Source of the DNA: Lophium mytilinum | Lineage: Eukaryota > Ascomycota > Dothideomycetes > Mytilinidiales > Mytilinidiaceae | Reading direction: 5' to 3' | NCBI GenBank assembly: GCA_010093605.1 | Contig: MU004196.1 | Span: 770,255 to 834,254, forward strand | Length of the DNA stretch: 64,000 bases | Shown: in pieces, positions 38,307 to 46,210 of the stretch | How the letters are laid out: every line of letters starts with the position of its first letter | Position numbering within the stretch: the first letter of the stretch is position 1 | Position numbers and translations under genes: made by a program | Notes under the pieces: generated by a model | Seen by the model: only the letters and a program-made list of their open reading frames with translations | Told to the model about the DNA's origin: nothing | The model's database searches: none

Positions 38307-40121
38307 GGGTTGTAGGAGGGATGTATTCATATTACGGGAGCAGGAGACAGCATCATCGCTAAGGTCATGTCTTTTCTGTAGAAGGTCCTAGAATTAGGAC
38401 CAAGGAGCCAGCGTGCGAAGTTCTCAGTAAATCAAGATACCCCTAGAGTGCTTCAATGCTCTAATGTACAATTCGTCCCCTAAGACCAATCCTCGCAGCT
38501 TAAGAACAGTCTCCATCCCGCTATGAATCCCAGCCGATGTTTACTCGCTGCATTACGAACAAGACCATGTTTCATTCTCTGTTTGCTACGAGGAATCACA
38601 AGCAAAGATACTTCCCACCGCTACACCTGATCACACCAAACCCTCCTCCCACCCACGTGACAGTAAGTCTTCGACAACGTATAGAAGATTCCTCTTCTCC
38701 CGCCAGTCTCAAAGATTAAGGCGGGGGCAATGTCTGCAGCATAAACAGTGAAAACTACTTCACCAAATGGCTGTAAAAAGCAAGCCGGAAGAGACAAATG
38801 GAGGTTGTGCTTCGCGGGCAGCAAAATGCAGCAGGACCCCCAGGAATGGACTGGCGGCAAAGCGACAGTACCAGCAGTGATGATGCTGAGCGTCAGGTCC
38901 AGTAGTTGTATCTCAATAGAGGGACAGTAAAGATGCCTACCATATTAGGACAGTGGCGATGGGCCTCATCAATAGGTGAGCAAAGTTTAGTAGAGCGAAT
39001 ATAGGTTCCCTGCTCCACCATCCAAAACCACGGCCATCCACCTATGAAAAGTGGATGGAATCCGTCTGGTCGAAGGAACGCGCGACGGAACGGATCTGAC
39101 AGTCGTGCAGCGTCAACGGCCATAACGGCTATCCCTCGAGTCTCTGTTTGGTGCGTCCATAGCCTAGCCATTTCCTTATCATGCATATAATGCCCCCAAC
39201 CCGATCTCCTGGTATGCGTCTCGATTTCGGCCTTGACATCAGGGTGGGTATTGGCTCCATAGGCAGCTTCTTGCGGGTTCGCTAGGGCTTGTAGGCTGGC
39301 TTCTATCGTGATTCGTGCGCTGACTTCGATGATGCACCCGGTGGCGCGTAGAATGGCGGGGCCTGGACTATGGCTCTCATAGTGAGGAGGAGGCTTGCTT
39401 CGATAGTTTATTTTCTGTTGAATCTAGCTATAGTCGGGCATCGAAGGTAGATGTAGAATGAGTACGGCAGAATGCATAGCGGGGAAGTCAACGCAGCGTT
39501 TGCTTGAGGATAATTAGGATTCGCTGAAGAACGCGGTACCTCTGGTATCTGAAGCCAAAGAGCAAGTATGGCGGGCCGCGGGAAACTCTTTGAGGACAAC
39601 GTCAAGTCAGGCTCCTTGAGGTTTCGCTCGGGGCTTGTCCGGTGGGAATATGGGCGCCATCGCCCGCAGAAGCTTAGGTGCAGCGACATGGCGAAGACAG
39701 CAAGACAGCAGTGAATGAAGCGTAGACGAGGCAAGTAGTCCACGTTTGGGTCTCTTCAGGTGAGATGGATGGGGCTTCGCTCTGGTCACGGGAGGTCTGG
39801 TGAGGCGGAGGCGTTGGACGACAGCAACACCACTCCACATCAGAGGCCATCGTGTTTTGCTAAGATTGCTCGTCAGCGGGATTCATAGATGATGAAGGGC
39901 TTCATAATGTAGGTACTCTAGCTATGTCTCGCCCACAAATGTTAACCCAAGGCATCGCACAATGGCGGTCAAGGGCGTTAAATATTGCGACCCCGCAGGC
40001 CAGCCCACGGTCGCAGCCAGCATCAACACCACGACACCATGTCGGTTGCAGAGATTTGCAGCAAAGCAGTTTCTTCTTCGAAGCCCCAGACAAGCTGAGA
40101 AGTTCAATGAAAAAAGATAGA
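38307..40121. other. 1.8-kb intergenic region
   Basis: Several short frames on both strands, none with a recognisable family. CCCACGTGAC is at ~38,652. The right end lies just downstream of the U2 snRNA gene. Confidence 0.45.
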
Positions 40122-40362
40122 GAGTTCGCGTCGGCCCGAGGCAGTGCAATACGAGCGACACTGTGTTCCTGAACATAGGCAAGCCCAGCGGCCCAGAAAC
40201 GGTTTCCAAAGACTGGATTAATCTTGAGAGATCCCGTAGGATCGTTTCAGAGATTAAACTGAAAAGAACAGATACTACACTTGATCTAAGCCAAAAGGCA
40301 CTATAAAAATTGTTAGCAAAAGCACAAAACTTTGGGGGGAAGTGTCGACTTACAAGAGAGCT
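40122..40362 (-). ncRNA. U2 spliceosomal snRNA gene with an internal 53-nt intron
   Basis: Read on the minus strand from 40300: TGCCTTTTGGCTTAGATCAA, then GTGTAGTATCTGTTCTTTTC and AGTTTAATCTCTGAAACGAT. These are the conserved U2 5' domain, with the branch-site pairing core GTAGTA. Stem IIa (GATCCTACGGGATC), an Sm-like stretch (AGTCTTTGGAA, not a perfect consensus) and a stem-loop IV with CGTATTGCACTGCCTC follow. The 3' end is set at about 40122 by a T-rich tract and is approximate. The expected first bases (A-UCUCUU) are not next to UGCC. Instead CTCTCTT ends at 40354 and is split from TGCC by GTAAGT...GCTAAC...TATAG (40301-40353). Spliced length is about 188 nt, normal for U2. A GTATATC element lies ~35-40 bp upstream. 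Confidence 0.9.
40301..40353 (-). other. Candidate spliceosomal intron inside U2 snRNA
   Basis: 53 nt, donor GTAAGT, branch site TTTGCTAAC placed 12 nt before the acceptor TATAG. Removing it joins CTCTCTT to TGCCTTTTGGC, as in other fungal U2 RNAs. Confidence 0.85.
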
Positions 40363-41012
40363 GAAAAAGAAAGGAAGGTCGGGGGGCGGGCTGGGTGATA
40401 TACTTCGAAAAGATTGAGAGTCTTGGCGCTGACTCATCAGCGCTAGACCGTTTAACTGGGGACAGTTTAATTGGGGTTCTCCAGGCAGCAGCGTGGAATG
40501 TGGTGGAACTTTTCGACGGGATTTGTGGGGGTGCATAGTCTCACGTGCATAAATGAGCACAACTGTTTGGGATGCTTTGAAGAAGTCAATTTCCTTGGTA
40601 CGTACTTGATCGATAATATCATTCTCAGATTCTCGCAAAAGTAGCAATCCAAGAATCTGGAACTCCTTCTACTTTTGGTATACATGCACTCTGAACTTGC
40701 CTAGCACCGTTTGAAGTCCTCTAAAACGCCAGGAAGAACTAGGAAGCGACAAGTTTCACAACCTGAGAGGGAGTCGTGTTACACTGTCTCTCTATGTTCC
40801 ACAGAACCTCACCGCTTGCGTCTCCAGCCACCTGTCCTGTAGAATCTTCTCTCCTCGTCCAAATTGACCCTACTGACAGGAAAGACTCTACACCTGCTTA
40901 ATCTACTTGCATCTGTTCAACGCTGTGTGTGATGCTACGACAGATATCAGAACTTTGAGCAAATCTCACATTGACCGATCTGTGGAGTCAATCAACACAC
41001 CGACATATCAAC
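40363..41012. promoter_or_regulatory. Divergent gap, U2 snRNA / F-box gene
   Basis: Contains the U2 promoter side (GATATAC on the plus strand at 40397-40403, reading as TATA-like for U2) and the leader of the F-box gene. No open frame of interest. Confidence 0.5.
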
Positions 41013-43892: not shown

Positions 43893-46210
43893 CTACCTGC
43901 TGCCTTCATAGTCACTTGCCCATCCGCCTGCTGCGTACACGCCCGAAGCATTGGGTTGCGCGTAACCATCGTCTTCCTCTTCGTAGTACTCGCCGCCGCT
44001 GCTGGCGTCGAAGCTGCTGCGGCCGCTGATCTCGCCTTCGACGTCGTCGGGGCCGCCTGCTGGGAGCTGGTCCCATTGGATGCCGGCGAGTGCTGGGTAC
44101 TGGGCGAGCAAAGCCGCCGGTAGGCCATATTGCTGAGGAGCAGGCAGACCAGTTTGGTCCATTCCACCAGATGCTGAGGGGTAGCCCTGGTAGCCTTGCT
44201 GTTGCGGAGGCATCATGCCGTAGCCGGAAGGCTGCATATTGTTGCCGAACCCGTTGCCATTGTCCATCGATTGCTGGCTCTGCGGATCCCACGACCCGCC
44301 CTTCTCTTGCGCCTCCTCTTCTAATAGAGGTCGAATGCAGACACGACCAGCCTCGGAGCGGAAATGGCGTCCAAGGGCATCGGCGCGGGCAAACCGCCTT
44401 CCGCAGCCCCAGCTTCCATTATCCTTCAGCACCCCTCGACAAACAAACTTCTTCTCTCCCGAATGGAGCCCTTCGTGGCGTTTTCGATCGTGCTGGCGAG
44501 CAAAGGCTTTGCCACAGACACTGCAGACGAAAGGGCGCTCATCGGTGTGGGTGCGGAGATGAGATCGAAGGTTGTACGCTCGAGTAAATCGCTTCGGGCA
44601 CAAGTTACACTGGAAGGTTGCCGGGTGCTTTTGGGTGCGCTTCGCACTAGATCCAGGACCTTCAGCGGGTCCTCCCGCAGAAGTCGGCCTCGAAGGATCC
44701 GCCAAGTCCAGGATGTAATCCCGGTGAGGAATGCTAGATGTTGAGGATCGGCGAGAGGACTTTGTAGAGGGCGAAGGAGAGCGCGACGATGGCACCTTGG
44801 CGGCATTTGGAGAAAGCGATCGGCTGGGATCCGAGTGGCCACTCGCTGGTGTGGAGGCGCGGGTGCTTGCGCCACTGAACGGGTCCGACTTGGCACGCAT
44901 ACGATTGCGGCTTCGTGCTAAGATAACGTTTAGACATTATTGATAACGAAAGCTTGAATTTACTCACATCGATCTGGCGGGCTGAGGGCATCAGTCTGCG
45001 TTTCGGGTCTCGCAGGCTCGAAGCTCGCTTGCCGTGAAGGAGGCGCAAAGTCAATATTGATCTCTGGGGGAGACATCGTATCGGCTTGGCCAAAGTCTCC
45101 GCCCTGGTTTATCGTAGGGAATGGCTCATGGCCTGGTCCTTGATACATTTCCAGTCCTTGCTGTCCACCATACTGATTGTTCATGGCCTGGAGACCATAG
45201 CTGTTGCTTGAGGTGAAAGGAGGCAGCGATTGCTGCTGCGGCATGAGTCGAGGCGAGATGTGTGGGCTGTGGCCGGGGCTGATATGCGACTGATTCTCTG
45301 ATAGCGTGAACTGGCCAAACTGCAGCACCTCCTGGAACAAGGCGGGGTCTTGCTGGGCGGCCAGCAGCGGTGATGGGTTGTCATTCGGCTCGAAGTCGCT
45401 GTTGCCAAGGTACGGCGAGGGCTGCGCGGAGGACGAGACGTCAGAGTATGTGTCGGACGGTGCCCTCCGGTGGCCGTGGAAGCCCATGCCACCCCATTCC
45501 GGGCCTTGAGGCTGCCCGTATGCTGCGCTGGGGTCTAGTGACGCATGCCGGGAGTGGTTCGGTGACGGGAATGCGCCTTGGTTCATGTTCGGGGAGGCAT
45601 GCGGGCTGCCGTTGGGGCGATTCATGTGGGGCTGGAGGAGATGGGGAGGAGTCGGGGAGTGCGCCTGCGTGGTCGCCATCTGGTTCATAAGGTTGGAGGG
45701 GTCTACCGAGTGGTCCTGCGGCTTCGCGTCGAGCAGATGCGGATCCAAGGTACCGAGGAAAGAGGGATCGATTGACTGCTCTTGATTGAGGCTGTTGCCT
45801 TGGTAGAACTGGTTGAACTCGTCGTTGTTGCCGCCTTGGTTGTTGATATCAAGGAGCTCAGGCGCAAAAAGGCTGCCTTGCGGCCCGAACTGCGGACTGG
45901 GCGCGTGCTGGTGGGAGAGGCCGCCCTGTGCCTGGAGGAAGGACTGGTCGGCGGGATTGTGCTGCGGGAACTGCTGGTTCTGGCCGGCGGTGAGGTAGTG
46001 CGATGAATTGTCGAAGCTCTGGCCGGACAGATTGGTGTTGTTGTTGTTGCTGTAGGGGTTGGTGGCGTAGGGGTCGGGCGACAGCGATTGATCGAGGCCG
46101 AGTCCAGGTAGGGTATTGTGGTAGGGCGCGTGAGGGGACGGGGAGGGCGAATGTCTTATATTCTGCTGGTGGCCCTGCGAGGGCGACCTGCCCCGCTGGT
46201 GGGGATCCAT
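43893..46210 (-). CDS. crzA: Calcineurin-responsive C2H2 zinc-finger factor CrzA/Crz1
   Basis: After calcium rises, calcineurin dephosphorylates Crz1-type factors, which enter the nucleus and activate ion, pH and wall-stress genes. Exons 44968-46210 and 43893-44917 join in frame to 755 residues. The N-terminal two-thirds is Gln/Asn/Ser/Pro-rich, ending in a PxIxIT-like calcineurin dock, PEINID (residues 382-387). A Ser-rich region with many SP sites follows. Two classical fingers, [19 protein letters not shown] (from 516) and [19 protein letters not shown], precede the atypical third finger, [20 protein letters not shown]. The C-terminus is Gln/Gly-rich and acidic. palA lies upstream on the same strand. 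Confidence 0.95.

Follow-up and report, generated by a model that had tools for sequence, protein, structure and literature searches.

Introns within snRNA genes are a classic hint that introns can insert into the RNAs of the splicing machine. In the basidiomycete yeast Rhodotorula hasegawae, introns are reportedly present in the U1 and U5 genes. The U2 gene of this yeast has been described as containing an mRNA-type intron (Takahashi et al. 1993, cited in PMC2586383), and U6 introns have been described from fission yeast and other fungi (Tani and Ohshima 1989, 1991; Canzler et al. 2016; PMC5832005; PMC10581693). The introns of the fungal U3 snoRNA are also of the mRNA type and lie mostly near the 5' end, with paralogues that do and do not contain the intron in eight genomes (PMC5832005); according to the accessible part of that 2017 paper, no small structured RNAs other than U3 and U6 were known to be interrupted often. 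The U2 gene described here resembles that of R. hasegawae, as far as the available text of the earlier work goes, in being a fungal U2 gene with an mRNA-type intron. It differs in belonging to an ascomycete, Lophium mytilinum, in the position of the intron after nucleotide 9, in the presence of a second intron in three copies, and in having many paralogues with and without introns.

As judged from the features of the gene and of its paralogues, the 64-kb window, i.e., the whole stretch of DNA that was analysed, very probably contains a working-looking U2 gene with a real major-class intron after the ninth nucleotide, as one member of a genome-wide set of snRNA introns. The results from cmscan include a single Rfam match at the gathering threshold in the window, RF00004 (U2; 40313-40120, minus strand), which covers the full length of the model (positions 1-192) with 128.8 bits, compared with a curated gathering score of 46. 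The model aligns the intron tail ACAAUUUUUAUAG with its first positions, where the 5' end of U2 belongs. On the minus strand, intron 1 reads GTAAGT...GCTAACAATTTTTATAG, after which exon 2 opens with TGCCTTTTGGCTTAGATCAAGTGTAGTAT at 40300 (Table 1). The initial annotation, which had proposed a U2 gene with a spliceosomal intron near its 5' end, was thus confirmed; its coordinates and motifs were right, and the strand (minus) had not been stated. The donor, branch site and acceptor (GTAAGT, GCTAAC and TAG within 53 nt) have the spacing of a fungal GT-AG intron. A strict pattern, GTAAGT-N-RCTAAY-N-YAG, occurs at only one place on both strands of the window, 40353-40301, and the ends of this place coincide exactly with U2 sequence; an intron look-alike produced by chance was rejected on these grounds. 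The branch-recognition core GTGTAGTAT is present in the window copy, and its GTAGTA presumably has the role in branch recognition that is established for U2. A gene for a zinc-finger protein is found near the U2 gene (window 44960-46210, minus strand), with 98% identity to a Mytilinidion resinicola protein over 58% of the query.

Table 1. Features of the U2 gene and its flanks, in window coordinates
Feature	Position	Strand	Remarks
Upstream element CTAGCGCTGATGAGTCAGCGCC (GATGAGT at -76)	40425..40446	-	Common to other snRNA genes here; putative role
TATA-like element TATAT	40398..40402	-	First base 40 nt upstream of proposed +1
Exon 1, AGCTCTCTT	40354..40362	-	Read from the sequence; proposed U2 +1 = 40362
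Intron 1, 53 nt, spliceosomal type	40301..40353	-	Donor GTAAGT, branch site GCTAAC, acceptor TATAG
Branch site GCTAAC of intron 1	40312..40317	-	Probable branch A 40313, 12 nt before intron end
Exon 2, U2 body	40120..40300	-	cmscan RF00004; 3' end approximate
Branch-recognition sequence GTAGTA	40273..40278	-	Read from the sequence
Empty site of intron 2	40269..40270	-	Uninterrupted in the window copy; interrupted in L006, L007, L008
Sm-site-like stretch AGTCTTTGG	40206..40214	-	Sits where the model has AUUUUUGG
Downstream element TTTTCATTGA	40104..40113	-	Possible 3'-end signal; putative role

The genome searched comprises 43.18 Mb in 24 contigs. At least nine U2 places, all over the cut-off, were listed, with 46 of 596 candidates scored; here and below, the numbers of U1, U2, U4, U5 and U6 paralogues are lower bounds that refer to the places listed. 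When the U2 core was searched for as a pattern, allowing up to three mismatches, eight of these places were found (seven exact matches, and L007 with one mismatch); L017, the remaining one, no longer has the core. All nine listed U2 places have the same exon 1, and intron 1 is found at the identical position in eight of them, namely seven with the core and L017. It is 53-117 nt long, with RCTRAY 12 nt before its end in 8/8 cases; six copies have GTAAGT as their donor and L003 has GTAAAT, and L001, with the odd donor GTTCGT, may be spliced poorly. In the remaining place, L005 (G000:C4:740153-740364), the sequence runs continuously as AGCTCTCTTTGCC, i.e., the exact empty site that a paralogue should have if intron 1 is a GT-AG intron. 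Intron 2 is located just after the branch-recognition sequence in L006, L007 and L008, in each case beside intron 1; the junction is TATCT^GTT in two copies and TATTG^GTG in L008. In a tree of the U2 places no fork was starred, and gain and loss of intron 2 were not told apart. Among L001-L003, the exons share 98-99% identity, compared with 74-83% for the introns, 67-75% for the upstream flanks and 64-69% for the downstream flanks, and paired changes in one stem were read by eye from the alignment. A lone pseudogene was rejected on the paralogue pattern.

The start of U1 is fixed by established U1 biology, and the U1 genes can be compared with those of U2. Using a loose list of TATA variants, a TATA-like box was found to start 39-41 nt before exon 1 in L001-L006, with only weak look-alikes, at 34-37 nt, in L007, L008 and L017. 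Among the intronless U1 places, nine have a recognisable 5' end; the same box lies at 39 nt in seven of these and at 45 nt in one, and was not found in the last. This matching spacing supports a U2 5' end at 40362. A mature 5' end near 40300 with no upstream exon, the outcome that the initial annotation had set against its own proposal, appears contradicted by the promoter spacing. Moreover, GATGAGT or GCTGAGT is found 61-77 nt from the 5' end in seven of nine U2 places (it is not present in L005 and L006), in five of the 13 U1 places with a recognisable 5' end, and in five of six U4 places, while TTTTCATTGA or a one-base variant follows every listed place of U2 (9/9), U1 (16/16) and U4 (6/6). 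Promoter and 3' elements at a shared spacing, as defined here from this genome's own copies, point to snRNA genes of the Pol II type. The joined U2 would form helix II with U6 over 11 bp (-12.7 kcal/mol), and 9 of the 11 paired nucleotides fall in exon 1, in agreement with the earlier suggestion that the intron splits the U6-pairing strand of U2. For an RNA that begins in the intron tail, the value is only -3.1 to -7.2 kcal/mol. The unspliced U2 end still reaches -9.8 kcal/mol; the pairing thus argues for exon 1 more than for splicing. Taken together, the identity of exon 1 in nine places, the TATA spacing, the U6 pairing and the identity of exons compared with that of introns indicate that exon 1 is real.

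Introns are found in three further snRNA families. In U6, they occur in 7 of the 21 listed places (L048-L050 and L052-L055), at nucleotide 40, with a length of 48-51 nt and the junctions ACAGAGAAG^...^ATTAGCAT. Six U6 places have an identical 98 nt of exon, and two of these contain the intron and four do not. All seven U6 introns contain AGCTTCAAAACTAA, the first ten letters of which recur at the U6 3' end. The fungal U6 introns described previously are, in the accessible portions of the reports, of the mRNA type and located in a conserved region of U6, as are those found here; compared with fission yeast, U1, U2 and U4 are interrupted too, and U6 genes with identical exons coexist with and without the intron.

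For U1, 16 places were listed, none of them over the Rfam cut-off. Four contain introns (L057, L058, L059 and the decayed L060) of the form ATACTT^GT...CAG^ACC, which interrupt the stretch that reads 5' splice sites, ATACTT^ACCTTG; in three others (L061-L063) the 5' end could not be recognised. The intron end in L060 is ambiguous, as the pattern took the first CAG and gave 35 nt with no branch site. Across these four cases, L060 included, the joined U1 end pairs with the consensus donor at -12.0, compared with -5.1 when unspliced. A tree of 12 of the 16 U1 places, from which L060-L063 were left out as decayed, requires one change of intron state and has no starred fork. About 350 bp from one of the interrupted U1 genes there is, in inverted orientation, a relic of the 5' half of a U1 with an intron (L074, G000:C14:578497-578544).

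Each of the six listed U4 places (L034-L039) has an intron within its U6-pairing strand, at one of two sites that lie four nucleotides apart. Two of the donors are GCAAGT and one is GTTCGT, and L034 lacks RCTRAY, with only GTTAAC. No match to the joined, intronless U4 sequence was found in the genome with up to three mismatches. The pairing of U4 with U6 reaches -24.6 to -26.6 kcal/mol for joined ends, compared with -10.3 to -19.7 kcal/mol for unspliced ends. In the three listed U5 places, no intron was seen by eye, and the 5S rRNA control gave one place of 120 nt with no intron. In total, at least 28 snRNA intron intervals were recognised by pattern, or 27 without the doubtful L060. Among the listed U1, U2, U4, U5 and U6 places, 17 of 55 are located in the first 0.75 Mb of G000:C4, which is less than 2% of the genome. 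The sole U3 place found (L078, G000:C8:1123038) also looks interrupted, by a stretch resembling an intron at its 5' end, as does the fungal U3 in the available part of PMC5832005; U3 is outside the spliceosome, so that it involves no self-dependence, unlike U2 here.

Based on this evidence, the snRNA introns are most likely ordinary spliced introns that are tolerated as passengers, and the spliceosome apparently splices some of its own parts in this fungus. In the proposed pathway, RNA polymerase II would start at AGCUCUCUU, about 40 nt after the TATA-like box, to give a pre-U2 from which pre-existing spliceosomes would excise the 53-nt intron. The joined RNA, AGCUCUCUUUGCC..., would be an ordinary U2 able to pair with U6. 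Hyphae and spores would inherit snRNPs, and the introns would be tolerated because cells inherit spliceosomes; the dependence on splicing would then be harmless and the introns would persist. We infer that they spread by duplication and conversion of the multicopy snRNA genes. As to their origin, the reinsertion of an excised intron put forward in the initial annotation is possible, and reverse splicing into snRNAs that sit in the spliceosome would be the likeliest route. DNA copies of spliced RNA, made from the 3' side, would delete introns and tend to spare the 5'-most, and such loss would explain the 5' bias of the U1 and U4 introns and of the first U2 intron. The U6 intron, located at nucleotide 40, is an exception to this bias.

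A stronger version of this proposal, which is possible and which we put forward tentatively, is that the spliceosome of this fungus is near autocatalytic closure and that introns moved among the snRNA genes by reverse splicing. Each U4 found and nearly each U2 would then need spliceosomes already holding U4 and U2. Movement by reverse splicing is suggested by the scattered intron 2 of U2 and by the likeness of U4 introns to U2 introns of L008 and L007. Intron 1 of the U2 place L008 and the intron of the U4 place L037 have in common ACTCCACCCC(C)ATCCTTTCCACA, a block of 23 nt, and the best cross-family score between U2 and U4 introns was reached in 1 of 2000 dinucleotide shuffles (0 of 200 in a smaller run). 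A motif picked after inspecting these introns, GTAAGT..CCATCCTTTCC..CTAACA, is found at three places in the genome, two U4 genes and one U2 gene. This likeness fits a possible movement of introns between snRNA genes.

It is unlikely that the introns are kept for regulation, with feedback of splicing capacity on U2 and U4 supply. Such a role might be read from U4, which looks wholly dependent on splicing, and from the composition of the introns, whose bodies are C-rich and G-poor; their pyrimidine fraction is 0.61-0.91, compared with 0.55 on average for 18 candidate mRNA introns, a small, unannotated set obtained with a self-made filter from about 209 kb (an earlier filter on less sequence gave 12). 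However, the presence of introns differs among paralogues, even among the U6 places with identical exons, which is expected of neutral passengers. A self-limiting loop on U2 supply had been suggested in the initial annotation; there is no sign of regulation in these data to support it, and a U2 that depends on U2 amounts to positive feedback and thus not to a self-limiting loop.

It is very unlikely that L005 supplies the U2 of the cell and that the intron-bearing copies, the one in the window included, are silent or decaying. In favour of this reading, L005 is uninterrupted, with an exact core, a TATA-like box that starts at 39 nt, the downstream element, 88.2 bits and largely paired stems; in addition, L017 lacks the core and the donor of L001 is weak. 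Against this, the exons of L001-L003 have remained nearly identical while introns and flanks diverged, L001-L004 score 123.3-133.8 bits with the intron tail replacing their 5' end, and L005 is without the GATGAGT element; a supply from L005 would also leave U4, with all its listed places interrupted, unexplained. A second intact U2 beside a silent window copy was the other finding that had been expected to count against the gene, and half of it was encountered: an intronless U2 exists in L005, which is 66-72% identical to the other eight places and is perhaps an old second U2 lineage, but six further core-bearing U2 places have the same intron, so that the window copy is no odd one out.

It is highly improbable that the snRNA introns belong to an introner-like family that invades genes at large. 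Introner-like elements have been reported from Dothideomycetes, the same class, and in the accessible text (PMC4457414) related introns occur several per genome, as here; the 23-nt block common to U2 and U4 introns would also suit such a family. An introner-like family should, however, provide many near-identical copies in unrelated genes. With very common words skipped, the genome was searched with two introns: the U1 query matched two U1 genes (itself included) and one U1 relic, and the U4 query matched three U4 genes, itself included. Both match snRNA-related places only, which makes a genome-wide introner family unlikely. As the U2/U4 motif is likewise confined to snRNA genes, an introner family was rejected as the source; the two introns and the one motif show no spread of the kind described in PMC4457414. 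Finally, the absence of exon 1, with U2 starting near 40300 and CTCTCTT being promoter sequence beside an accidental intron look-alike, can hardly be right, for although the covariance model is alignable from 40313 on, none of the nine U2 places differs in exon 1, which is continuous with the body in L005, the promoter spacing fits 40362, and most of the U6 pairing would be gone.

A search of the literature, covering mostly papers available without subscription, returned no ascomycete U2 intron and no U4 intron. We thus regard the finding as a known phenomenon, snRNA introns, in a lineage for which no report was found (weak evidence of absence) and in unusual breadth. For annotation it carries a warning, since the covariance model mistakes the intron tail for the 5' end of U2. 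This one genome has about 27 introns spread over four snRNA families, and copies with and without an intron occur together in it, so that three questions could be tested in a single organism: whether reverse splicing into the RNAs of the spliceosome is a source of new introns, how a machine that is essential can afford to depend on what it makes itself, and whether the supply of snRNAs responds to splicing capacity.
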